44,027 nt of DNA from a virus. The notes beneath the pieces are model-generated. The model did not search any database, had not been told where the DNA came from, and saw nothing but the letters and a program-made list of their open reading frames with translations. Shown piece after piece: positions 16,443 through 44,027 of this stretch (position 1 is its first letter; each line of letters starts with the position of its first letter). The stretch lies in IMG/VR virus record IMGVR_UViG_3300032462_001665, positions 1-44,027 of that record. One strand, given 5' to 3'. Made by a program: the position numbers and the translations under genes.

Positions 16443-17909
16443 TTATGAATTGTTTGCATTGTCGGCTACTGATGCGCCATATTCACCAACAAATATTTCG
16501 TTACCACAATCTCCAAGAGTAGAAGTTGCATCAATGTGTGAATTTGGTTGAGTGAGCATTACTTCTATAGTGGTTACAAAACTACCACCAGATATTTGAT
16601 GGCTGACGCCTCGAATCAGATAATTTTTATTGCTTAATATAGGATTACAATTAGGCTTAGTAATCCAAGTGCATTGATCGTTTATGTGAAACGGATTTAT
16701 TACAACTATTGACAAAGTTTTACCTATTAGTTCAGGTCCGACACTATAAGTTGGATCGCCATGTATTTTTAGTTGCGCAGTAAACCCTGGAAGGGGTCGT
16801 TCAAATTTACCGTTTGCATCTAAATGAGCAGAATTTCCTGCTGATGCACCAGATGCAACTGCATCTGGATGTCGCCACATCAATTCATGTTGTTGAATTG
16901 CGGGTGCAGTTTGACCTCCAGCTTTTTGAATATCAACAAGTGGTTCTACTTTTGCAGTCATGTCGGCAGATGAACCGCCTCCTGATGTAGCACCATGTCC
17001 TGATGTTGCTACAACCCATTTTACAGTTGGGTTGAATTCAAGAACTGGAGAGCAATTGCCGCCATTGACGATGTATGTTCTAAAATGTGTAGAACAGCAT
17101 TTTTTTTCACTAGGGTCTTCTTGGAAAATCAAGTCCGCTGTCATTGGATTATAAACGATTAAAATTCCACGATCATTTTTGGTCACAACAGAACTTAACC
17201 ACGTTCTAGCAGCCGCCAATGGATTTTGTTGATTCATTGGCCATGCCCCTTTAGGTCCATCTTCTCCAGCATCAGAAGATTTGAATTCTAAGGGTTCTCC
17301 GTCCTTATTTAGAAATTTAACACTATTGTATCGAGGATGATGATTCGTAAAGAGGTCTGTTAATGCGACTTTCAATGGAATCTTTTGACTTTCATCGCCA
17401 AGTGTGTCATCTTGTGGAACATCTTGCATATCACTGGTTGGCGCACGCACCTTGAATTTTAACTTAATGATTCCACCTTCAAATGTTTGATCTACATCGG
17501 TAATCATTCCCCTCAATTCACCACCTTTAAGTCTATTGGCCGTATGAAAATCAACAGTCCCGTCACAATGTTTGATGATCCAGCCAAAATCAAATATTGT
17601 ACCTAAAACTTCTTTTAGAGCGTGAGTTACGGTTTTGTGCATGGCTTGAATAATATCTCTGTACATAGTGCCACCTTGATCTATGACTTCAAAATCAGCA
17701 CCCCATCCAGGCGTTCCGTTGCCAAAACCATATTGAAAAGAACTAATTGCTGCATGGTTGTTGGGGTGCGATGATGAATTGCCTACCTGAATGACTTTAC
17801 CGCCAGCAAACTTCAACATGACATACGGCGAGAAAACAGCACCAGAAAGTGACTCTTGGGGCGAATTGTCGCAACTATAGGTAGAAAGACAGTCTACTGT
17901 ACAAGGCAT
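16443..17909 (-). CDS. Baseplate hub protein, gp27/late control D-like
   Basis: 488 residues. The C-terminal part has NKNYLIRGVSHQISGGSF followed by TTIEVMLTQ, the typical end of gpD/gp27-type hub domains. The N-terminal part (DFEVIDQGG, ELRGMITDVDQTFEGG) is consistent with the tube-like barrels that fold into a pseudo-hexameric hub. It sits directly upstream of the gp5-like spike gene, the partner expected from T4, P2 and type VI systems. Its leader contains three copies of a 7-bp repeat, the first of which also supplies the stop of the preceding gene; a GGAG lies about 12 bases from the ATG. Confidence 0.85.
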   Translation of the reverse strand: MPCTVDCLSTYSCDNSPQESLSGAVFSPYVMLKFAGGKVIQVGNSSSHPNNHAAISSFQYGFGNGTPGWGADFEVIDQGGTMYRDIIQAMHKTVTHALKEVLGTIFDFGWIIKHCDGTVDFHTANRLKGGELRGMITDVDQTFEGGIIKLKFKVRAPTSDMQDVPQDDTLGDESQKIPLKVALTDLFTNHHPRYNSVKFLNKDGEPLEFKSSDAGEDGPKGAWPMNQQNPLAAARTWLSSVVTKNDRGILIVYNPMTADLIFQEDPSEKKCCSTHFRTYIVNGGNCSPVLEFNPTVKWVVATSGHGATSGGGSSADMTAKVEPLVDIQKAGGQTAPAIQQHELMWRHPDAVASGASAGNSAHLDANGKFERPLPGFTAQLKIHGDPTYSVGPELIGKTLSIVVINPFHINDQCTWITKPNCNPILSNKNYLIRGVSHQISGGSFVTTIEVMLTQPNSHIDATSTLGDCGNEIFVGEYGASVADNANNS

Positions 17910-17923
17910 AATTTATATTCTCC

Positions 17924-17944
17924 ATTATCCATTATCCATTATCC
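17924..17944. repeat. 7-bp tandem repeat (three copies) between baseplate genes
   Basis: Three perfect copies of ATTATCC on the plus strand (GGATAAT on the coding strand). They include the TAA stop of the gp53-like gene and form most of the leader of the hub gene. Copy number would alter the leader length, not either protein. Confidence 0.9.
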
Positions 17945-18265
17945 AAACACAGCGTCAGGAATTCTAATATTAAGTCCGGCTTTGAAATCAAATATATCTT
18001 TGATTTCATTAGCCTCCATAATCTTCCACCAAAAATCAACTGTTCCGTAAGCTGTCTGGGATACTAAATCTGGCCGGTACTCTGTGCCAGCCGTAATAAC
18101 ATAATATTTGTCTCTTCGATCAAGTTTGGTTTTGTTCTTTTTGTAAATCGTAAAAGTCAAAAGTTTGTTTTCTGTATAGTAAACAACAGTTGCATCCGAA
18201 TATCGACTTGTCACAGGTACAAATCGCTTGGGATCAATGTTGGTTGCTTGTGAGTAATTTGCCAT
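17939..18265 (-). CDS. Baseplate wedge protein, gp53-like
   Basis: 108 residues. The motif series YRPDLVSQTAYGTVDFWWKIMEANEI then GLNIRIP (key residues R-D, AYG, WW, N, D, IRIP) is the signature of T4 gp53 and the related LysM-type tail proteins. gp53 bridges the wedge core around the hub. It sits beside the gp27-like hub gene. Start ATG with AAGG nine bases upstream. Confidence 0.85.
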   Translation of the reverse strand: MANYSQATNIDPKRFVPVTSRYSDATVVYYTENKLLTFTIYKKNKTKLDRRDKYYVITAGTEYRPDLVSQTAYGTVDFWWKIMEANEIKDIFDFKAGLNIRIPDAVFG

Positions 18266-18847: not shown

Positions 18848-21800
18848 TTAAGCATTTGGTGCGCCCATGTTCAATGCGGCCTTACCAGCAGTTTGCGTTA
18901 CCAACCCGACCGTGTTTCTGAAGAAATTAGCCGGTTTGTGAACCACATCCCTGGTTTTAGTATCTCCAGGACTTCCTCCACTACTTGTAATAGGAGTGCT
19001 TGATGGCTTCAAAGCAGTCAAAACTTGTTGGAATAATGTTATCAATGTATCCAATTTCGCATTATGGTCCCCAGCTTCACTTGCAATAGTTCCCAATTCA
19101 GGAGATGTGATCTCCGTTTTGGATGGCGACGATGACGCCTTATCTTGAGCAACGGCACTGTGCATATCCGAAATTCCAGTTGCTCTGGCTACGGGTTGCA
19201 TTGTGGCGTTTCCACTTTCATTGCCGCCCGGATTTGAAGAAATCAATCTTCCTGGTTCGCTCGAACCCCTGATTTTTTCTTCATTCTTGAAGAAGTTACC
19301 AAATTCTGCTCTTGGTGGACTCATGGCTTCACCGCCAGTCTGGAATCCAGCCTGTTCTCTTCTGATGCGAGTTGCTTCTTGGCTTTCTTTGAGTCTATCC
19401 GTGTAAGGGTTTTTATTCGCTCGCTCACGAATATTATCACCCAAAGCCCTTTGCATAGGCGTGTCTTTCATGCTCTCAGCAGCACTTCGCATATCGAGAT
19501 TGCCAATGGCAGAAGAGGGATTGATTGATTTGATGGCTGGCTTTAGAGGATCATTCTTTGCTTGAGCTTCCTTTATTTTCTTCTTAGATTCTTCTGTTAG
19601 CTCAAATCCACCACTCTTAGAAGCAGAAGCAGAAGCAGTTTGAGCGGCACTTGGCATCAACGCAGACTTGGCTTTGTCCCGCTGAATCTTACGCATATCA
19701 AGACGGTGAAATAGATTGCCAGCAGCAGCAGGCTTTGCTTGAGCTTCCTTTATTTTCTTCTTAGATTCTTCTGTTAGCTCAAATCCACCACTCTTAGAAG
19801 CAGAAGCAGTTTGAGCGGCACTTGGCATCAACGCAGACTTGGCTTCGTCCCGCTGAATCTTAATCATGTCGTTTTGAGCCTTGAAATTCAATCTGTCTCG
19901 AACGAACAAACCATCACCAGTCATCGCTTCATTGACCATTTGAGTCAAAGCAGTTGACATGCTTTGTTGAGTAATAGATTGATCTCTTAGCAATTGTGTT
20001 TCAATTGCTTTTTCGCTTGGAGTTCCTGCTCCACCGCCTGTGCCAGCACTTCCACCACTGCCCATGCTTGTTGCGGCAGTCATGTCTTTCAAGGCAGTGG
20101 CGAACATTGCCATCTTCTGAACCGGAATCTTATCCAATGCAGAGAAGTCTATTCCAGAATTGGAAATTGACTTCATGGCAATATCCATAGCCCCCAAGAC
20201 TTCTTCAACCTTGTTGAGTGCCATGACCATTCCATCAAGCTGATTTACAACTTCGTCAATCTCAGAAGATGGTGGCAACAACTTCATTGGTTGCAGAATA
20301 CCATTGTTGATTGCATTTGCCACGCCCATAAAGGCATATCCAAACATAGATGCTTTCCAACTTGCCATTATCGTCCAGAATGGATTTATTGAAAATTCAC
20401 TCATTCTCCCTGAGACATATGTGAAAACTTTATTTGCAATGTCAAAAGTCTTGGCCATAAATTTCATTTGAGATATAGCTTCAATCATCTCGTCGCTTGT
20501 CGGCAACAACTTCATAGGCTGGAAAATGCCATTGTTTATGGTGTTTGCCAATTCTGTGAAAGCGTTGCTGAATATTGAAGCCTTCCAGCTTGCAACCATA
20601 GTCCAGAATGGATTGATTGAAAGCTGATTCATTCTTTCTGAAACATAAGTGACCATCTGTTCGGCTGCTGCTATGCCCTTTGACATATTGCCCAACTGTG
20701 ACATGCCTGCTGTGATTTCATCGGCAGTCGGCAGATTAGTCATGATTGGCCTCAAAATTCCGTCTCGCACGAATAGCGTGATAGAATTGAACCAAGCTGC
20801 AAATATATCTGCATTAGCCGCCAACGCACTAATCGGCGAATCCTTCAAACACTTGCCAGCGTCCAAAGGAATAAACATAGCCGATAAGTTAGAAATTATG
20901 GTTGGCAACATAGTTATAACACGACTCATAGCAGACAAAATTTGGGCTGCCATCTGAATGGTTTGAGGTTCTGGTAATACAGTCAAAATAGGAAGAATGA
21001 TTCCATCAACCATGAATTGTGCTACACTGGTAAACCAATTTCTAAATGTATCTGTTTTTCCTTCTAGTTTTTGTTTAGCTGTTTCATCTATCGACACGCC
21101 AGAATCAATCAAAGGAATTAAACCATTTGCCATTTTGTTGATAACAGCAGGAACCAAAGTTATAACTTGACTCATAGCAGATAAAATTTGTGCCGCCATC
21201 TGAATGGTTTGAGGTTCTGGTAATACAGTCAAAATAGGAATGATAATGCCGTCTCGCATAAAGATGGCGATGCTCTTGAACCACTTTGCGAAATCGTTCT
21301 TGTAGACCATGATTTTATCAATTGGAAAATCTCTGTCCCAGAATTTTTCAGCCGGGTCACTCACAAGACCCATAGCACCAGACAAATTGGTAATCATTGG
21401 AACAATGCTGCCAGCAATTTTTGCCATCGCCGTTATCGTTTGAGATGCACTGCCAATGTCTATGCCTTTCATTTCCTTGTTGACTGGATTCACAATTCCA
21501 TCTCTCATGAACTCAGCAATGGACTGGAACCATATCTTGAATTGACCTTTGTTTTCTATGATCTTTGGAATTGGGGCCACGTCGAAGAAGCTGGAAGAAT
21601 CCGTTCCCAATGAAATCGCTTCAGCCAAATTTTTAATCATTGGCACAATATTCTTTGCAACTACAGCCATATTGCTGATAGTATTGGCAGCAGTTAGGAT
21701 TTGCTTAGGGTCTTTGAATTTATCATTGACTGGAATTACAATTCCTTCTTTTACGAATTCAGCAATAGCAATAAACCAAGATTTGAATTGATCTTTGTTG

Positions 21801-24800
21801 TCTATGATCTTCTGGAGCGGCGCTTTGTCGAAGAAGGTTTTTGGCTCCATCAATCCAATAACCGAGGCTAGACTTTCCAGTGTCACCTTTGTGCCACACA
21901 ACAACCTTGCTAAATCTAACACGATCACCGAAGCAGTTTGGAGACTCTTGCCATCGGGAAATTTATTGTTGATTGGTTCCACAATTCCTATGTTCACGAA
22001 CTCAGCAATTTGTGTAAAGTAATCAGCGAACTTGGTTTTGTTTTCTATGATCTTGGTGATTGGCGACTTCGTAAATAATCCGTCATCCATCAATCCAACC
22101 ATGCTGGCAAGAGAGCCGATAGCTTTACTGGTCGATTCCAAAACAGTGGCCAGCATAGTCATTTTTTTGGCTGCATCACTCAAACCAGTAGTGTCTTTGA
22201 TCGTTGCCATCGCAACGACAATTTTGTTTACAAATTCACCGACAGCATTGAAGAATCCATCAAATTGAGGAATTGCTGATTTTATTTTGTCTATAGGAGA
22301 ATCAGTGAAGAATCCACCCTGAGTTAACGGGGCAATCTTTTCACCCATGATCGTGATGGACGGTAAAGCAGCATTCAAAATCATAGCCATTGCTTGCAAT
22401 CCCTTGGCTGCACTCTTTAGTTCTTTGGTGTCGCCCAGGCTTCCACTAACTTTGTCGATGATTGTTCTAATAAGATCAACCATAGCCGGGAAGAACACTT
22501 CCATTTGGCCCTTGGCTTTTGTCATCTGCTTAATCGGAGAGCCGGTAAACCAACCACCCTGAGTCAAAGGCACAATCTTCTCGGATAAGGTGTTTAGAAC
22601 ATTGGAGACGAGTTCGACAATGGTTGAAACGGCTGTCAGGCTCTTGACCATCGACTTAGCAGAACCAACATTTACTTTGCCACCAATATCTTGTGCGAAA
22701 CCAACAATGGTTCCCACATAATCCATGATTGGCTGCTTCATCTTCTTTAATGCTTCAACACCAACACTCATAGCATCTTCTATTGGTACTGATTTCCAAA
22801 AACCTACACTGCCCTTCATTGACAACAGTTTGTCTTTAGCTTTCATCATTTCTTCTGTGACCGCACCACATGCAGCTAGAATTTCAGCAACACCTTTACC
22901 CATTTCTGCGGCTTGTTTAGGATTGAGTGATCCACCTATTGCTCTGGAAAACTCAACAATGGCATTAACGTATGCTTGAATTGGCAAACTGATGTATCTG
23001 AGGAAACTCTGACCAGCAAATAAATCTTTTTGTAATGTGGTCCTCATGAACTGGAACCATTTGGTTGCTGCTGGCATTGACAACAGTTTGTCTTTAGCTT
23101 TCATCATTTCTTCTGTGACCGCACCACATGCAGCTAGAATTTCAGCAACACCTTTACCCATTTCTGCGGCTTGCTTAGGATTAAGTGATTCACCTATTGC
23201 TCTGGAAAACTCAACAATAGCATTAACGTATGCTTGAATTGGCAAACTGATGTATCTGAGGAAACTCTGACCAGCAAATAAATCTTTTTGTAATGTGGTC
23301 CTCATGAACTGGAACCATTTGGTTGCTGCTGGCATTGACAACAGTTTGTCTTTAGCTTTCATCATTTCTTCTGTGACCGCACCACATGCAGCTAGAATTT
23401 CAGCAACACCTTTACCCATTTCTGCGGCTTGCTTAGGATTAAGCGATCCACCTATTGCTCTGGAAAACTCAACAATGGCATTGACATATGCCTGAATTGG
23501 CAAACTGATATATCTGAGGAAACTCTGACCAGCAAATAAATCTTTTTGTAATGTGGTCCTCATGAACTGGAACCATTTGGTTGCTGCTGGCATAGACAAC
23601 AGTTTGTCTTTAGCTTTCATCATTTCTTCTGTGACCGCACCACATGCAGCTAGAATTTCAGCAACACCTTTACCCATTTCTGCGGCTTGCTTAGGATTAA
23701 GCGATCCACCTATTGCTCTGGAAAACTCAACAATGGCATTGACATATGCCTGAATTGGCAAACTGATATATCTGAGGAAACTCTGACCAGCAAATAAATC
23801 TTTTTGTAATGTGGTCCTCATGAACTGGAACCATTTGGTTGCTGCTGGCATAGACAACAACTTGTCTTTGGCTTTCATTATTTCTTCTGTGACCGCACCA
23901 CATGAAGCTAGAATTTCAGCAACGCCTTTTGCCATTTCTACAGCCTGCTTAGGATTAAGCGATGACTTCATTGATTGGGCAATATCAACAACTGCACCAA
24001 TATAACCCTTTACTGGTCCCGCAAGAGTGTCAAGCGCACCAACTCCCATCCACATTAACTTGGAAATTATTCCAGCAAATAAACTCAATGCTCCCAACTT
24101 GCTCAAGCTGCCAACCGCACCAAGAACTTCATTGGCAATATTGCCTGCGGAACTCAAAATTGAAGATAATGCCTCGGCTATTTCTTTTCCATGAGCCGGG
24201 CTAACTCCTGTGATACTTTGGGACATGCTGATAATTGCAGCATTCAAAGCAACTACTGCTGGTGTTAAAACCAACAGACCGGCAGCACCCAACAGTGCTA
24301 GGGGTGCCATTACCAAGAACACACCTGTTGTCATGGCTAATCCCAACGCCGCCAATGCAGCGCCCATGCCTAGAACTGAGATAGAAATCGCAGCAGCGGC
24401 ACCAATTACGTCTCCCAATGCTTCGGCTACTTTACCGGCTTCTGCTGGATCGATGATGTTTTTCATCACAGACTTCGCCATGTAGACAACACTTGCTGCC
24501 AATGCTGTAATCGCTGGCGTCAAAGCCATCAATCCTATTGCTCCCAACCCGGCCATGAGTACGGTAGGCCAAATCAAGCCGCTCGCAACCAAGGCACCAA
24601 GTTGCCCTAATGCCCAGCCTGTTCCCATAACTGCAAGAGCAATAAATCCAGCAGCCATAAGTACGCCTGCTAAGTCTTTAGCTACTTTAGCTGCGGTTCC
24701 TAAATCTAATCCAAAGGAACCCATAACCTTTTGAGCCATGTATACTACGCCAGCAGCCAATGCCGTAATCGCTGGCGTCAAAAGCAACAATGCCCCGGCA

Positions 24801-27800
24801 CCTGCTGCCATTAGTCCAGCGAGTGCTAGAGCTTGCGGTCCACTGAAACTTAAAGCAAATGCTCCCAGGAGAGCTAATCCTGCTGATGCTCCCATAATTG
24901 CAAGAGCAATGAATCCTGTGGCTAATATCAATTCACCAATATTCATGGCTGCTTTAGCAGCGACTCCAGAGTCCATTCCGAATGCACCCATGATCGACGT
25001 AGAAGCCCAAATAACAGCAGAAGCCAAAAGGACTATGGCTGGGGTCATAATCAAAAGTGCTACAGCACCAACCGCCATGTCTTTAACAAGACCTGTTGAC
25101 TTCTTGGCGAATTCACCCAAAGCCTTTAGTCCGAAAGAAGCCCCAATGATTGCACCGGCGATGGCACCAGCAGCAACAATTAGTCCTGCAACTTGCGTTG
25201 CAACCTTAACTGCCGTAGATGGGTCCAGTCCGGCTACGCTCATGACGACCTGACCCATCTTGACCAGAGCCACGCCCAACAACATGATGACGCCGCCAAC
25301 CAACAATAATGCAGCAGCAGCCTTGCCTATTTCTTTTGCAATAGCACCTGGATTATCAATGATTTTTTTCCAAGTGCTGCCCTCTTGGAGTCCTTCTAAA
25401 CATTCAACAAATTCTTTTGCACCTGCTGCCATAGCTCCGGTGACACCGGCTACTGCTACAATTACTGCGGCTGTTTCAGCTACCGAACCGATGTTTAATC
25501 CCAACTTCGATAGAATGAGTCCAGTCATTGCTACAACTGCCGCACCAAGCAGAACAATAGCAGGGCCAATCAGCATTAAAGCTGCTGCGGCTGTGAGAAC
25601 TTTAGGATAAGATGTCTTAGCTTTTTCCGTGAAACTCTTCATCTTATCAGAACTTAGAGCTTCAAGAGCAACAAATCCAGCGGCGGCAATGGCACCACCA
25701 GCCAGAGCGACGGCACCTACTACTGCGGCTGTCTCAAGCACAGTTTTAATATCAAGTTTGAAAGCACTCATGATCTTACTAGACAAGAATACAATCGCAG
25801 CACCAAGGGCAATAATGCCTAAACCTAATATTGCGACTGCGACTGCGGCCTTAGCCATTTCTTTGCCACTAGCCAACATTCCAGCAAGATCGAATCCTTC
25901 TGTTTTCGGAGTGGTAGGAATTGATCCTGACTCTGCCGAAGCCATCTTCGTTTGACGGACAACTAACGATTGTTGTGCATCTTGGACTTTATCGCCAACC
26001 TTCTGAGACTTGATGTCATTCTTTTGCATTTTGACATCTTTCTTCTGCATCAAAGCATCTTTATCTTGTAACTTTCTGTCAATTCGTGCCTGCGTCTTCT
26101 CTGTCGGCGACATAGACGCTGCCTTGGCTTGTCCTGCTGCTTTGTCTGCTGCCCACTTTGACTTATCTGGAGATGATGCGGCTTTTGCTTCGACTGCCGA
26201 TTTGTCAGAAATAAGTTTTGACTTATCCATACAGACGCACTTGCGAATCGCTTTAAGCTCGTCATACATTTTTGGAAAAATGTCTTCGTCATCTATTTTG
26301 ATAGAATTAAGAGCTTCAGCTATTGGGTCTTTAGTCTTAGCCCTTACAAGAGGCTCGTCACCTTTAGGAAGACCGGCTTCAGGTCCGTCTTTCTTTGGAT
26401 GTCCAAATCCTAAAGTTCCCTTAATTAGTCCATATAGACTCTTTTCAAAAGTTTCCACATACCCTTCTTCGCCGGGTCTATTTCCATGTTTGTCCTCTAC
26501 TTTTTCTTGACCGAAAGTGCCTTTGAGGACTTTGAAAAGTCCTTGACGTTTATCTATTGTGGACAAAACACGCTTGAAGCTATCTAATTTTACAATTATT
26601 CCCATCGCCAATAAACCAATGCCAGTAATTGCTGCTGTAATGGCGGCTCCAATCACTAAGATTTTACCAATCAAGCTATTGAAGAACATTGAGAAACTCT
26701 TGTTTGTATAGTTTCTAATGTTGTCGTTGATTTCGCTCAAAGAGTGCTGCATATCAGTCAGTGGGTCAAGTTGTGACTTTTGAGCAGTGGCAAGCTCTTG
26801 TTCACCTTTACTGATTTGCGAAGTCAACTCACGCATTGCCGCTGGGTCTTTCAACGCCCGCTCAATTGCTGAAGAATCAATTGTTAGTTCTTGTTTGCCA
26901 GCCTCTTTCAGTCCGTCGTTTACACTGTTCATAGCATTTTGGATTGCTCCTCTTGCTACATCAGCTTCGCTTGTCCAGGATTGACCCAGTGCATTCAAAT
27001 CTGATTCAAAATCGCCACGACGTTTGCCGAAAGTAGCAAGTGCTTGATTCATGTCTTTTGCGCCCTTGGCAGCTTCATCCAAGGCGGTCAATACTTCCAA
27101 GTTCTTGCTCGTCTTCATTCTTCGCTCCTCTTCCATGAGCGAAGCTCTTTCTTCAAGTGTTAAATTTTGTTGACGCTTCTTGTTGATGTCAGAAAGACGG
27201 TCTGCCATGCCTTTGCCAGCTTCGTCCAAAGTCTCTTTAGCAGCTCGAAGTTCTCCAAGCTCCATTCCAATTGTTGACTTCATGGCCACGTTGATTTGAG
27301 CCTTGATAGGTTCACTTAACTGGTCAATTGCCTCAAAACTTTCTACTCCAAATCGCTTTAATACGTTTTCAAAACCTTTGCCCATAGCTTGTATGCCAGC
27401 TTTGGTTTTAGTAATCGTGCCAGTAGTCAATTCGGACATTCTGCCAACACTTGATGCTGCCATTAACAATAAGGCCCGGTTTGCGTCTGTTGCCTCAAGA
27501 AACAAGTTAGAAGAACTCGTCATCGCCTTCATCAAAGGCTGCATTTGACTTTCAATGCCTAACTTTTTGGCATTGGCACCAATTTCAATTACGTTTTTAG
27601 CTGCTGTTGCGGTTAAAGTGGCTGCGTTCCTCAAGGTGTCAATGAATTCTTTACTGCCCTTAATGACACCAGCTAGTTCATCGCCGGTCATGCCAGTATT
27701 ACGAGCAATTTCTCTCATGCCTCGGCCCATATCGGCAAGTTGCCCTATCGACATGCGACCTGCTTTGTTCCAACTTACAAATTCCTCACCGAGACTTCCT

Positions 27801-28792
27801 GCTTCCATTCCCAATTGTTTCTCGGTATTCAACTGAGTTTTGACAAGATTAGAAGCAACCTTTAGGTCTTTGATTCCATGCTTTAGTGCCTTGACGTATG
27901 ACTTTTGAAACACATCACGGTCAACACCAGTTTGTTTGGTTGTTGATCCAATGTCCTCAAAAGACCTCATCAATCCCATTGATTCTTTTGTCGCACCGGC
28001 TATTTCATAGCTAATGGATCGCATTTCTTGAACGATCTTTCGTTCTTTGTCAATAACTCCATTAAAGATTTCACCTAGAACATTAAATCCTAACAGATGT
28101 TTTTCTATTGCGTACATTTCATTGCTAATTTCAGACATGAAATTGCTCATGATGGTCAAGTCTTTTGAGACTGCCAATCCATCAATCATTCTGGTTGGAT
28201 CAGCCCCAGAATTTGACCGTCCACCTGCCCCGTTACTAGAACCACCTGTCTTGCCGCCAGCCGACTCTCCATCATCTGGAGCAGGAGTTGGTGTAGAAGG
28301 AGGACTAATTCCTTTTAGACAACTGCATAATTCACGGATGGCTTTTTCAACATAAATGTCATGTGTGTAGCCAGAACCCTTTTTGGAGAAGGTCTTGTAA
28401 AGACCATCACTGCTCTTAGACATCAGCTTTTCTTCTTTGCTGATGAATGGCTTGTCCTTCTTGTCCTTCTTTTCCTTTTTTGGTTGACCCTTAGATTCAG
28501 CCTTTTTTTCAATTCTTTTCTGAACAAGCTCTCTAAGGTTATCAACAACATCAGACAAGAAGCCTTTTTGCTCCTGCATTTCTCTAGCAAAGTCCTTGGT
28601 GTATTGCTCAAGAAGCTCTCGAACTTTTCCTAGACCTTCAGACTGATCACCATTTCCTTCTTTTTTGGCATCAATAGGACGTGGCGCTCCTACCTTGGAT
28701 TTCATCATCGTCCCAATAAGGGCTTTGATCTCGCCAAGTGACATATTGCTGGAGTCTATTTTTCGTCCGAGATTGTCTATTGCTGTGGCCAT
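18848..28792 (-). CDS. Tail tape measure protein (3314 aa)
   Basis: A very long, mostly helical protein placed just before the tube/baseplate genes. Charged N-terminus with Lys/Glu-rich coiled coils (about 1-160); helical region to about 680; an array of hydrophobic, Ala/Gly-rich hairpins (about 690-730 and 1020-1600); then modular repeats of about 75-110 residues with WF...IAEF/IAIFMRDGI...P motifs (about 1600-2890); polar, low-complexity C-terminus. Four consecutive 86-residue units at about 1655-2000 are nearly identical in DNA, and a 59-residue duplication lies near residues 2975-3080. Tape measure length sets tail length; at about 0.15 nm per residue this predicts roughly 0.45-0.5 micrometre. 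No lysozyme or peptidase domain was seen. Confidence 0.93.
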   Translation of the reverse strand: MATAIDNLGRKIDSSNMSLGEIKALIGTMMKSKVGAPRPIDAKKEGNGDQSEGLGKVRELLEQYTKDFAREMQEQKGFLSDVVDNLRELVQKRIEKKAESKGQPKKEKKDKKDKPFISKEEKLMSKSSDGLYKTFSKKGSGYTHDIYVEKAIRELCSCLKGISPPSTPTPAPDDGESAGGKTGGSSNGAGGRSNSGADPTRMIDGLAVSKDLTIMSNFMSEISNEMYAIEKHLLGFNVLGEIFNGVIDKERKIVQEMRSISYEIAGATKESMGLMRSFEDIGSTTKQTGVDRDVFQKSYVKALKHGIKDLKVASNLVKTQLNTEKQLGMEAGSLGEEFVSWNKAGRMSIGQLADMGRGMREIARNTGMTGDELAGVIKGSKEFIDTLRNAATLTATAAKNVIEIGANAKKLGIESQMQPLMKAMTSSSNLFLEATDANRALLLMAASSVGRMSELTTGTITKTKAGIQAMGKGFENVLKRFGVESFEAIDQLSEPIKAQINVAMKSTIGMELGELRAAKETLDEAGKGMADRLSDINKKRQQNLTLEERASLMEEERRMKTSKNLEVLTALDEAAKGAKDMNQALATFGKRRGDFESDLNALGQSWTSEADVARGAIQNAMNSVNDGLKEAGKQELTIDSSAIERALKDPAAMRELTSQISKGEQELATAQKSQLDPLTDMQHSLSEINDNIRNYTNKSFSMFFNSLIGKILVIGAAITAAITGIGLLAMGIIVKLDSFKRVLSTIDKRQGLFKVLKGTFGQEKVEDKHGNRPGEEGYVETFEKSLYGLIKGTLGFGHPKKDGPEAGLPKGDEPLVRAKTKDPIAEALNSIKIDDEDIFPKMYDELKAIRKCVCMDKSKLISDKSAVEAKAASSPDKSKWAADKAAGQAKAASMSPTEKTQARIDRKLQDKDALMQKKDVKMQKNDIKSQKVGDKVQDAQQSLVVRQTKMASAESGSIPTTPKTEGFDLAGMLASGKEMAKAAVAVAILGLGIIALGAAIVFLSSKIMSAFKLDIKTVLETAAVVGAVALAGGAIAAAGFVALEALSSDKMKSFTEKAKTSYPKVLTAAAALMLIGPAIVLLGAAVVAMTGLILSKLGLNIGSVAETAAVIVAVAGVTGAMAAGAKEFVECLEGLQEGSTWKKIIDNPGAIAKEIGKAAAALLLVGGVIMLLGVALVKMGQVVMSVAGLDPSTAVKVATQVAGLIVAAGAIAGAIIGASFGLKALGEFAKKSTGLVKDMAVGAVALLIMTPAIVLLASAVIWASTSIMGAFGMDSGVAAKAAMNIGELILATGFIALAIMGASAGLALLGAFALSFSGPQALALAGLMAAGAGALLLLTPAITALAAGVVYMAQKVMGSFGLDLGTAAKVAKDLAGVLMAAGFIALAVMGTGWALGQLGALVASGLIWPTVLMAGLGAIGLMALTPAITALAASVVYMAKSVMKNIIDPAEAGKVAEALGDVIGAAAAISISVLGMGAALAALGLAMTTGVFLVMAPLALLGAAGLLVLTPAVVALNAAIISMSQSITGVSPAHGKEIAEALSSILSSAGNIANEVLGAVGSLSKLGALSLFAGIISKLMWMGVGALDTLAGPVKGYIGAVVDIAQSMKSSLNPKQAVEMAKGVAEILASCGAVTEEIMKAKDKLLSMPAATKWFQFMRTTLQKDLFAGQSFLRYISLPIQAYVNAIVEFSRAIGGSLNPKQAAEMGKGVAEILAACGAVTEEMMKAKDKLLSMPAATKWFQFMRTTLQKDLFAGQSFLRYISLPIQAYVNAIVEFSRAIGGSLNPKQAAEMGKGVAEILAACGAVTEEMMKAKDKLLSMPAATKWFQFMRTTLQKDLFAGQSFLRYISLPIQAYVNAIVEFSRAIGESLNPKQAAEMGKGVAEILAACGAVTEEMMKAKDKLLSMPAATKWFQFMRTTLQKDLFAGQSFLRYISLPIQAYVNAIVEFSRAIGGSLNPKQAAEMGKGVAEILAACGAVTEEMMKAKDKLLSMKGSVGFWKSVPIEDAMSVGVEALKKMKQPIMDYVGTIVGFAQDIGGKVNVGSAKSMVKSLTAVSTIVELVSNVLNTLSEKIVPLTQGGWFTGSPIKQMTKAKGQMEVFFPAMVDLIRTIIDKVSGSLGDTKELKSAAKGLQAMAMILNAALPSITIMGEKIAPLTQGGFFTDSPIDKIKSAIPQFDGFFNAVGEFVNKIVVAMATIKDTTGLSDAAKKMTMLATVLESTSKAIGSLASMVGLMDDGLFTKSPITKIIENKTKFADYFTQIAEFVNIGIVEPINNKFPDGKSLQTASVIVLDLARLLCGTKVTLESLASVIGLMEPKTFFDKAPLQKIIDNKDQFKSWFIAIAEFVKEGIVIPVNDKFKDPKQILTAANTISNMAVVAKNIVPMIKNLAEAISLGTDSSSFFDVAPIPKIIENKGQFKIWFQSIAEFMRDGIVNPVNKEMKGIDIGSASQTITAMAKIAGSIVPMITNLSGAMGLVSDPAEKFWDRDFPIDKIMVYKNDFAKWFKSIAIFMRDGIIIPILTVLPEPQTIQMAAQILSAMSQVITLVPAVINKMANGLIPLIDSGVSIDETAKQKLEGKTDTFRNWFTSVAQFMVDGIILPILTVLPEPQTIQMAAQILSAMSRVITMLPTIISNLSAMFIPLDAGKCLKDSPISALAANADIFAAWFNSITLFVRDGILRPIMTNLPTADEITAGMSQLGNMSKGIAAAEQMVTYVSERMNQLSINPFWTMVASWKASIFSNAFTELANTINNGIFQPMKLLPTSDEMIEAISQMKFMAKTFDIANKVFTYVSGRMSEFSINPFWTIMASWKASMFGYAFMGVANAINNGILQPMKLLPPSSEIDEVVNQLDGMVMALNKVEEVLGAMDIAMKSISNSGIDFSALDKIPVQKMAMFATALKDMTAATSMGSGGSAGTGGGAGTPSEKAIETQLLRDQSITQQSMSTALTQMVNEAMTGDGLFVRDRLNFKAQNDMIKIQRDEAKSALMPSAAQTASASKSGGFELTEESKKKIKEAQAKPAAAGNLFHRLDMRKIQRDKAKSALMPSAAQTASASASKSGGFELTEESKKKIKEAQAKNDPLKPAIKSINPSSAIGNLDMRSAAESMKDTPMQRALGDNIRERANKNPYTDRLKESQEATRIRREQAGFQTGGEAMSPPRAEFGNFFKNEEKIRGSSEPGRLISSNPGGNESGNATMQPVARATGISDMHSAVAQDKASSSPSKTEITSPELGTIASEAGDHNAKLDTLITLFQQVLTALKPSSTPITSSGGSPGDTKTRDVVHKPANFFRNTVGLVTQTAGKAALNMGAPNA
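19558..19862 (-). repeat. Direct duplication of about 130 bp near the 3' end of the tape measure gene
   Basis: The block beginning near 19558 recurs 177 bp later near 19735. Both copies encode SALMPSAAQTASAS and SGGFELTEESKKKIKEAQAK; one copy has an extra six bases (SA). Confidence 0.9.
22820..23965 (-). repeat. 258-bp tandem repeats inside the tape measure gene
   Basis: The same sequence starts at 22981, 23239, 23497 and 23755, exactly 258 bp (86 codons) apart, with partial units on both sides. Middle copies differ by only a few bases; the outermost right copy is more diverged. The unit keeps the frame. Confidence 0.95.
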
Positions 28793-29396: not shown

Positions 29397-29425
29397 TTTA
29401 CAACCGGGTATTTCCGTGGTACAAT
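29397..29425 (+). promoter_or_regulatory. Sigma70-type promoter with extended -10
   Basis: TTTACA at 29397-29402, 17-bp spacer, TACAAT at 29420-29425 preceded by TGG (extended -10). The predicted start is just before the GGAGG ribosome site of the gene at 29446. The same element recurs at 35270, 38148 and 40783. Confidence 0.8.
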
Positions 29426-29445
29426 CTCAAGCGGAGGTTAAAACC

Positions 29446-30426
29446 ATGAAACTCAAATGTCCATCCTGCAAAAAAAACGTGAATATCGGCGATGCAAGTC
29501 GCTACAAGATATTCACTTGTACTTGTGGACGGCAATTTCGTGGAATTTGGGCTGATCTTAACGCTCTTGACTTCGTATTCAAGAAAAACTTCACATTCGC
29601 CGTTAAAGGTTACGATTCGGCAAGTGATACGCCGTGTCCGTATTGTTGGGCGAGAATTGGACTCGCTGACAGGACAGACAACACAATGGGTGTTGTAGCT
29701 CCAGAGAACTGTCATAAGTGTGGTAGAAATCTACCTACAACCTGGATCGGACCAAAATCAGAATCAGAATCAGAATCAGAATCAGAATCAGAATCAGAAG
29801 TCTTAGAAAAACCTGCTCCTGAATCACCGTACCCCTTTGCTAATTACCCAAAAAATCAACGGGAGCATTTTCTTCGTAGTGTCGAATACGTTCGTGGTTT
29901 TCTTGGTGAATACCACCTGAAGCAATTCATTGTGGATAGGGGTTGGAGTGTAGCCCAGCTTAATGAAGCACAAGTTTTGTTGGAGCTTCCTCAATTCTTG
30001 GTGGATCAAGTTAAAAACGACACCATGTTCAAGATTTACAACAAAATCGAGGATGAACCTGAGCCAACAATTAAGGCTTCGAGTTGCGCAGTGGACAATC
30101 CGGCGAGGTCGATACCACTTGCCACTGACGAAGAACCTGACTCTGACGAAGAACCTGACTCTGAGCCTTCTGAAGAATGGATTCAGAGACTACTCAATAT
30201 TGCTCATAAATATGTTTTCATTGATGGCGACTTAAAACAACTGATGGAATCCAAAGATTGGCTTAACGTAGCTCATCATAGAGACTATTTGAAAACACAT
30301 GGAGCAATGCTGACAAAACAAAAACGTAAAATGGTTGATTTTCTGAAAAAGAATGAGGGAAATTACCCGAAGCACAAATTCGATTCTGCTATTTCCAATC
30401 TTGAAAAATCAATTGCATTTCAATGA
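29446..30426 (+). CDS. Zinc-ribbon protein with Ser-Glu repeat linker, function unknown
   Basis: 326 residues. Two pairs of CxxC-type knuckles lie at the N-terminus (CPSC, CTCG) and two more near residues 63-95 (CPYC, CHKCG), indicating one or two zinc ribbons. A linker of six Ser-Glu pairs encoded by a hexanucleotide repeat follows, then helical segments (about 120-190 and 230-320) separated by a second acidic repeat (DEEPDS twice). The frame is open to a GTG at 29416, but the ATG at 29446 has GGAGG eight bases upstream and lies just after the promoter. It runs against the structural block and ends at a strong terminator, so it is a separately expressed accessory gene. DNA or RNA binding is possible but not shown. 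Confidence 0.75.
   Translation: MKLKCPSCKKNVNIGDASRYKIFTCTCGRQFRGIWADLNALDFVFKKNFTFAVKGYDSASDTPCPYCWARIGLADRTDNTMGVVAPENCHKCGRNLPTTWIGPKSESESESESESESEVLEKPAPESPYPFANYPKNQREHFLRSVEYVRGFLGEYHLKQFIVDRGWSVAQLNEAQVLLELPQFLVDQVKNDTMFKIYNKIEDEPEPTIKASSCAVDNPARSIPLATDEEPDSDEEPDSEPSEEWIQRLLNIAHKYVFIDGDLKQLMESKDWLNVAHHRDYLKTHGAMLTKQKRKMVDFLKKNEGNYPKHKFDSAISNLEKSIAFQ
29755..29796 (+). repeat. Hexanucleotide repeat (GAATCA) encoding Ser-Glu pairs
   Basis: Six perfect GAATCA units (29761-29796) preceded by one imperfect unit (AAATCA). In frame within the zinc-ribbon gene. Confidence 0.95.
30127..30162 (+). repeat. 18-bp direct repeat, two perfect copies
   Basis: Copies at 30127-30144 and 30145-30162, encoding DEEPDS twice in the zinc-ribbon protein. 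Confidence 0.9.
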
Positions 30427-42593: not shown

Positions 42594-42845
42594 ATGGACG
42601 ACAAGCGTTTCTACAGAGATTTGAAGAAAGACATCAAAAAGACTGGCAATCGCAAACGCCGCCGCTTTTTGAAGGATTTGTCCGCTGACCCTGGCGAATT
42701 TGATTATGGGTCAGCGGAATCTTCTGCTTTTAATGGAATGGGAGAGATGGAAAAAGGAAAAAGGAAAAAGGAAAAAGCATCATGTCCAAGAAGAAAAAGA
42801 CCCCAACGAGATGGATGCTCTTGCCAATTCCGACGATTCCAATAA
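42594..42845 (+). CDS. Small basic protein whose 3' end is set by a 7-bp repeat
   Basis: 83 residues as read. The first 60 (MDDKRFYRDLKKDIKKTGNR...) look natural. After the four-copy GAAAAAG repeat at 42750-42777 the frame turns Cys/Arg-rich and unlikely (CPRRKRPQRDGCSCQF). In the next frame the same DNA encodes HHVQEEKDPNEMDALANSDD... to a stop at 42879, and in the third MSKKKKTPTRWM... to 42988. One repeat fewer would join the natural N-terminus to the acidic frame. The 4-copy form may be an off or variant state, or a sequencing error. Confidence 0.5.
   Translation: MDDKRFYRDLKKDIKKTGNRKRRRFLKDLSADPGEFDYGSAESSAFNGMGEMEKGKRKKEKASCPRRKRPQRDGCSCQFRRFQ
42750..42777 (+). repeat. 7-bp tandem repeat GAAAAAG, four copies
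   Basis: Four perfect copies in the coding region of the small basic protein. Seven is not a multiple of three, so each gain or loss changes the downstream frame; all three frames stay open for at least 22 codons after it. Confidence 0.95.
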
Positions 42846-42988
42846 AATTGACGGCTCAGATGGTCTTCAACAATCTTGAAGACCAGATAAAAAAACTCAA
42901 CAACAAACCAAACACTAACAACAAACCAAACACTAAGAAAAAACCAAAGTATCGTTCTATTGACGATGACTGGATGCCGCCTTGGTGA
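42782..42988 (+). CDS. Possible small Lys/Asn/Pro-rich protein in an overlapping frame
   Basis: 68 residues. Starts just after the 7-bp repeat, whose GGAAAAAG could act as ribosome site. It holds a twice-repeated NNKPNT (18-bp repeat) and ends KYRSIDDDWMPPW, which resembles RSIDEPW...WEPP in the protein at 40821. The first 30 residues look less natural than the last 35; a later start (ATG near 42859) or fusion to the upstream frame is possible. Confidence 0.4.
   Translation: MSKKKKTPTRWMLLPIPTIPIKLTAQMVFNNLEDQIKKLNNKPNTNNKPNTKKKPKYRSIDDDWMPPW
42899..42934 (+). repeat. 18-bp direct repeat, two perfect copies
   Basis: AACAACAAACCAAACACT at 42899-42916 and 42917-42934, encoding NNKPNT twice in the frame that ends at 42988. 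Confidence 0.9.
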
Positions 42989-43940: not shown

Positions 43941-44027
43941 CTCTCATTCGCTCTCTCATTCGCTCTCTCATTCGCTCTCTCATTCGCTCTCTCATTCGCT
44001 CTCTCATTCGCTCTCTCATTCGCTCTC
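43941..44027 (+). repeat. 12-bp tandem repeat array cut by the right edge
   Basis: Seven full copies of CTCTCATTCGCT plus a partial one. On the plus strand, following an ATG at 43932, it would encode MKE then repeated LSFA, open to the edge. No ribosome site supports that ORF, so it is left as a repeat. Confidence 0.95.

Follow-up and report, generated by a model that had tools for sequence, protein, structure and literature searches.

SSR-controlled phase-variable genes are known in Neisseria meningitidis (PMC5084427) and, as far as that account of them goes, the locus described here resembles such contingency loci in having a perfect short repeat inside an open reading frame, with a unit that is not a multiple of 3. 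Measured against the loci of the same account, it is unlike them in that the repeat is not conserved and the array precedes a variable tail instead of turning a whole protein on or off. A literature search of limited reach returned papers on bacterial phase variation and none on a repeat switch of this kind in a phage, which is weak evidence of absence. The other close comparison is with the overlapping gene pairs of phage operons. As in these, the downstream gene of our locus (gene b) begins within the upstream one (gene a), in another frame and after a purine-rich Shine-Dalgarno-like site, and the same arrangement is found in two close relatives (L005 and L006, see below). Distant homologues (L010 and L017) are followed by another gene, which likewise starts inside the end of gene a. 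What sets the present locus apart from the usual overlapping pairs is that its purine-rich site is a perfect four-copy array that shifts the tail of the upstream gene.

The heptamer array and the tails of gene a

The window, that is the whole stretch of DNA analysed here, is a 44,027-base virus record that belongs to a large tailed phage, with recognisable baseplate proteins, a tRNA nucleotidyltransferase and a tyrosyl-tRNA synthetase. Gene a (42594..42845, plus strand), as assembled with four repeat copies, codes for 83 aa, comprising a conserved basic N-terminal core and a lineage-specific Cys/Arg tail (C-terminal end ...ASCPRRKRPQRDGCSCQFRRFQ). The first-pass annotation had described four heptamer copies within this small gene, and we found the array inside this open reading frame at 42749..42777 of the plus strand (GGAAAAA x 4.1, equivalent to GAAAAAG x 4), its copies being 100% perfect according to TRF. 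The unit of 7 nt, not divisible by 3 and placed in a coding region, is a feature expected of a contingency locus. Period-7 arrays of at least about 3 copies number two in the window versus none in five first-order shuffles, so the array is not a product of chance.

Protein searches of the viral collection recovered this locus from three further contigs. One of them, 3300027976_002058, represents the same phage as the window (100% identity over 14,272 nt). The other two, 3300031952_000040 (L005) and 3300020172_001601 (L006, a 340-kb contig), have a gene a core that is 85% identical. In the alignment the window is longer than both by a net 19 nt at the array, and the heptamer array is absent at the corresponding site of both, so that the retention of the repeat in related genomes that would support a contingency locus was not observed in L005 and L006. 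Their gene a products, 88 aa each, run directly into an acidic tail (L005 ends in ...QEEKNINEVDGLANSEESDKTDCSESPQES), which corresponds to the frame that three copies would give in the window. This tail, located at 42779..42879 of the plus strand, is out of frame in the window because the net insertion of 19 nt makes the four copies leave it so. With the acidic tail in frame in both relatives, it would most simply be the ancestral state of gene a.

A profile search extended the family of gene a to further large phage contigs, whose more distant homologues have only the first ~55 aa in common (roughly DKRxYRxLK and KKxGNxK); the DYG/SSxLNG motif of the family is present in the closer homologues. 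Beyond ~55 aa the distant homologues either stop or have unrelated tails. Scanning bacterial and archaeal genomes gave no relative of gene a, and a search of a phage database gave one weak match of interest, a 595-kb uncultured phage sharing the family core. Neither Pfam nor PHROGs contained a family for gene a or for gene b. The predicted structure of gene a has helices at residues 3-17 and 20-30 and nothing regular afterwards, with modest confidence (mean pLDDT 61). The product is a small basic protein whose conserved core is probably helical and whose variable tail is probably disordered. Since the tails of distant homologues are variable or absent and no regular structure is predicted past residue 30, a change of tail is likely to be tolerated.

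The pattern of substitutions also differs along the gene. Over codons 1-47 of gene a, 18 of 26 changes versus L005 and 20 of 27 versus L006 fall at third positions (8 and 7, respectively, at positions 1 and 2 together), and this third-position bias is gone in the overlap with gene b. The overlap measures 90 nt, a short stretch in which substitution tests are weak: the acidic frame, window versus relatives, showed amino-acid conservation not beyond that of simulated random substitutions (P about 0.55), and frame b slightly exceeded the simulations with P 0.03 for the window versus L006 and P 0.12 versus L005. When L005 was compared with L006, all three frames were more conserved than random, the frames not being told apart.

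Gene b and the open frames around the array

Gene b (42782..42988, plus strand) codes for 68 aa ending in RSIDDDWMPPW. Its ATG at 42782 is conserved in the alignment of the three phages, the proteins are 57-66% identical, and the C terminus IDDDWxPPW is preserved. Downstream of its start the lengths differ by multiples of 3 (the compared block has 198, 189 and 177 nt), and the +19 nt that breaks the frame is positioned upstream of the ATG. An AAGGA motif precedes this ATG in all three phages, as a single copy in the relatives (GGAAGAAGGAAACGTCATG) and as several copies in the window, where these Shine-Dalgarno-like motifs (42754..42773, plus strand) are located inside the array. Gene b is thus presumably translated from its own ATG. 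Homologues of gene b were found by the search only in these phages. Both frames are kept in the relatives and the downstream one has its own start, as in an overlapping gene pair; on these comparative grounds the 42782-42988 frame is a separate overlapping gene and not an alternative tail of gene a, the role that the first-pass annotation had given to RSIDDDWMPPW as the tail reached with five copies.

All three frames around the array are indeed open for at least 22 codons, as had been pointed out, but this carries little weight when synonymous recodings of gene b are considered. Of 20,000 synonymous recodings of the protein encoded at 42782-42988, none introduced a stop into the 18 codons examined of the Cys/Arg frame, so that protein b in the overlapping frame imposes the openness of this frame in the window. 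The acidic frame remained open over 30 codons in 9-15% of the recodings. In both relatives the Cys/Arg frame is interrupted by stops, including two adjacent ones just before the aligned block, which counts against its proposed status as an alternative product.

Tandem repeats along the phage genome

The window strain, represented by the window and contig 3300027976_002058, has 43 tandem arrays per 100 kb versus 9 in the syntenic part of the L006 contig; the remainder of the L006 contig has 22 and the L005 contig 24. These densities are rough, overlapping rows having been counted separately. The difference suggests that slippage or tandem duplication is frequent in this lineage and, given this general richness in tandem arrays, the heptamer of gene a needs no special function.

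Several of the arrays deserve a description of their own. A second heptamer array (TGGATAA on the minus strand, ~3.6 perfect copies) lies at 17917-17945, in the junction of gene 17939-18265(-) with the start codon ATG of 16443-17909(-), two genes of the tail region; a short plain junction is all that the 340-kb relative has at this site. We considered a rule by which heptamer arrays mark ribosome-binding sites. Both window heptamers fit it; with n = 2, and a single heptamer array in the 340-kb relative, the rule was not retained. At 29756-29799, AATCAG x 7.3 produces a Ser-Glu run in the gene at 29416-30426, with none seen in the corresponding L006 stretch, and the sister contig 3300027976_002058 ends exactly at this array. 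The window itself ends inside a 12-bp array (CTCTCATTCGCT x 7.2, 43941-44027), so that this contig end is probably an assembly break caused by the repeat. A 258-bp unit, x 4.4 with 97% identity, is found at 22817-23963 inside a gene of 3,314 aa (18848-28792, minus strand), probably the tape measure gene, judging from its size and position.

Origin of the repeat and competing explanations

We consider it probable (about 0.82) that the locus is an ordinary overlapping phage gene pair with a lineage-specific expansion of a tandem repeat at the junction. Gene b would begin in the 3' part of gene a, in another frame, with an ATG of its own behind a purine-rich Shine-Dalgarno-like site. In the window lineage this purine-rich stretch would have grown by replication slippage to four heptamers, with a net gain of 19 nt, pushing gene a from its old acidic frame into a chance Cys/Arg frame and leaving gene b unaffected, its start being downstream of the array. 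We infer slippage as the origin of the array, and expansion in the window, not loss in the relatives, as the direction of change. One observation counts against this interpretation: in the window the acidic frame has remained open, though only about 9% of the synonymous recodings of b keep it. The open frame is compatible with a recent frame loss, and also with a subpopulation still using the acidic tail; slippage may change the copy number of the array from time to time. Two overlapping genes with an indel had been offered by the first-pass annotation as the simpler reading, and this part fits all the evidence. Its principal proposal, slippage choosing among three C-termini, is unsupported, given that the close relatives have one tail only and no repeat, that gene b is independent, and that the Cys/Arg frame holds stops. 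The comparison of homologues that it had suggested for deciding on the ancestral tail gave the same picture, both close relatives showing only the acidic tail, and homologues with a single tail are one half of what it had said would refute the switch.

An unlikely alternative is that the four copies reflect a faulty assembly or consensus, or belong to a minority allele, the true or predominant sequence having three copies with the acidic tail intact. With three copies the frame would match that of the relatives' tail exactly, and contigs of this phage break at longer repeats. However, ordinary short reads can bridge an array of 29 nt, and contig 3300027976_002058 has four copies too, although with such an extent of perfect identity it is perhaps not an independent sample.

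The case for phase variation, in which slippage would toggle gene a among the acidic tail (three copies), the Cys/Arg tail (four) and a fusion with gene b (five), starts from a perfect array not expected by chance and from a 7-nt unit that cycles through all frames, all three of them open. The underlying arithmetic of the first-pass annotation is right, as three, four and five copies bring the end of the protein to 42879, 42845 and 42988, respectively, and a three-copy allele would bring back the ancestral tail. Nonetheless, we regard this explanation as quite improbable: the relatives lack the array and show a single tail type, their Cys/Arg frame is closed, and frame b comes with a start codon and a Shine-Dalgarno-like site of its own. 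Moreover, a scan of the viral collection, where this phage is known from two contigs only, found no other copy number at the array, and the tail of gene a is so poorly conserved that the payoff of switching is doubtful. That the array acts as an active contingency locus in this lineage, with a reversible switch of the gene a tail and five copies fusing a to b, seems to us very improbable.

Programmed ribosomal frameshifting on the A-rich repeat, with a -1 shift joining a to b or a +1 shift leading into the acidic tail, can practically be dismissed. The third copy does present G AAA AAG, correctly phased for slipping by -1 into frame b, but G AAA AAG is not the efficient A AAA AAG slippery heptamer, it is not conserved in the relatives (which lack the array and in which b is already provided with its own start), and folding revealed no unusually stable downstream structure (z = 0.19).

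Regarded as an overlapping gene pair with an expanded repeat at its junction, the locus advises caution, in that open frames around a repeat should not be taken as alternative products. It would also illustrate neatly how slippage, when it strikes a purine-rich ribosome-binding site located in an upstream gene, can rewrite the tail of that gene and leave the downstream one intact. If variation in copy number proved to be true, it would amount to a repeat-based switch in a huge phage.
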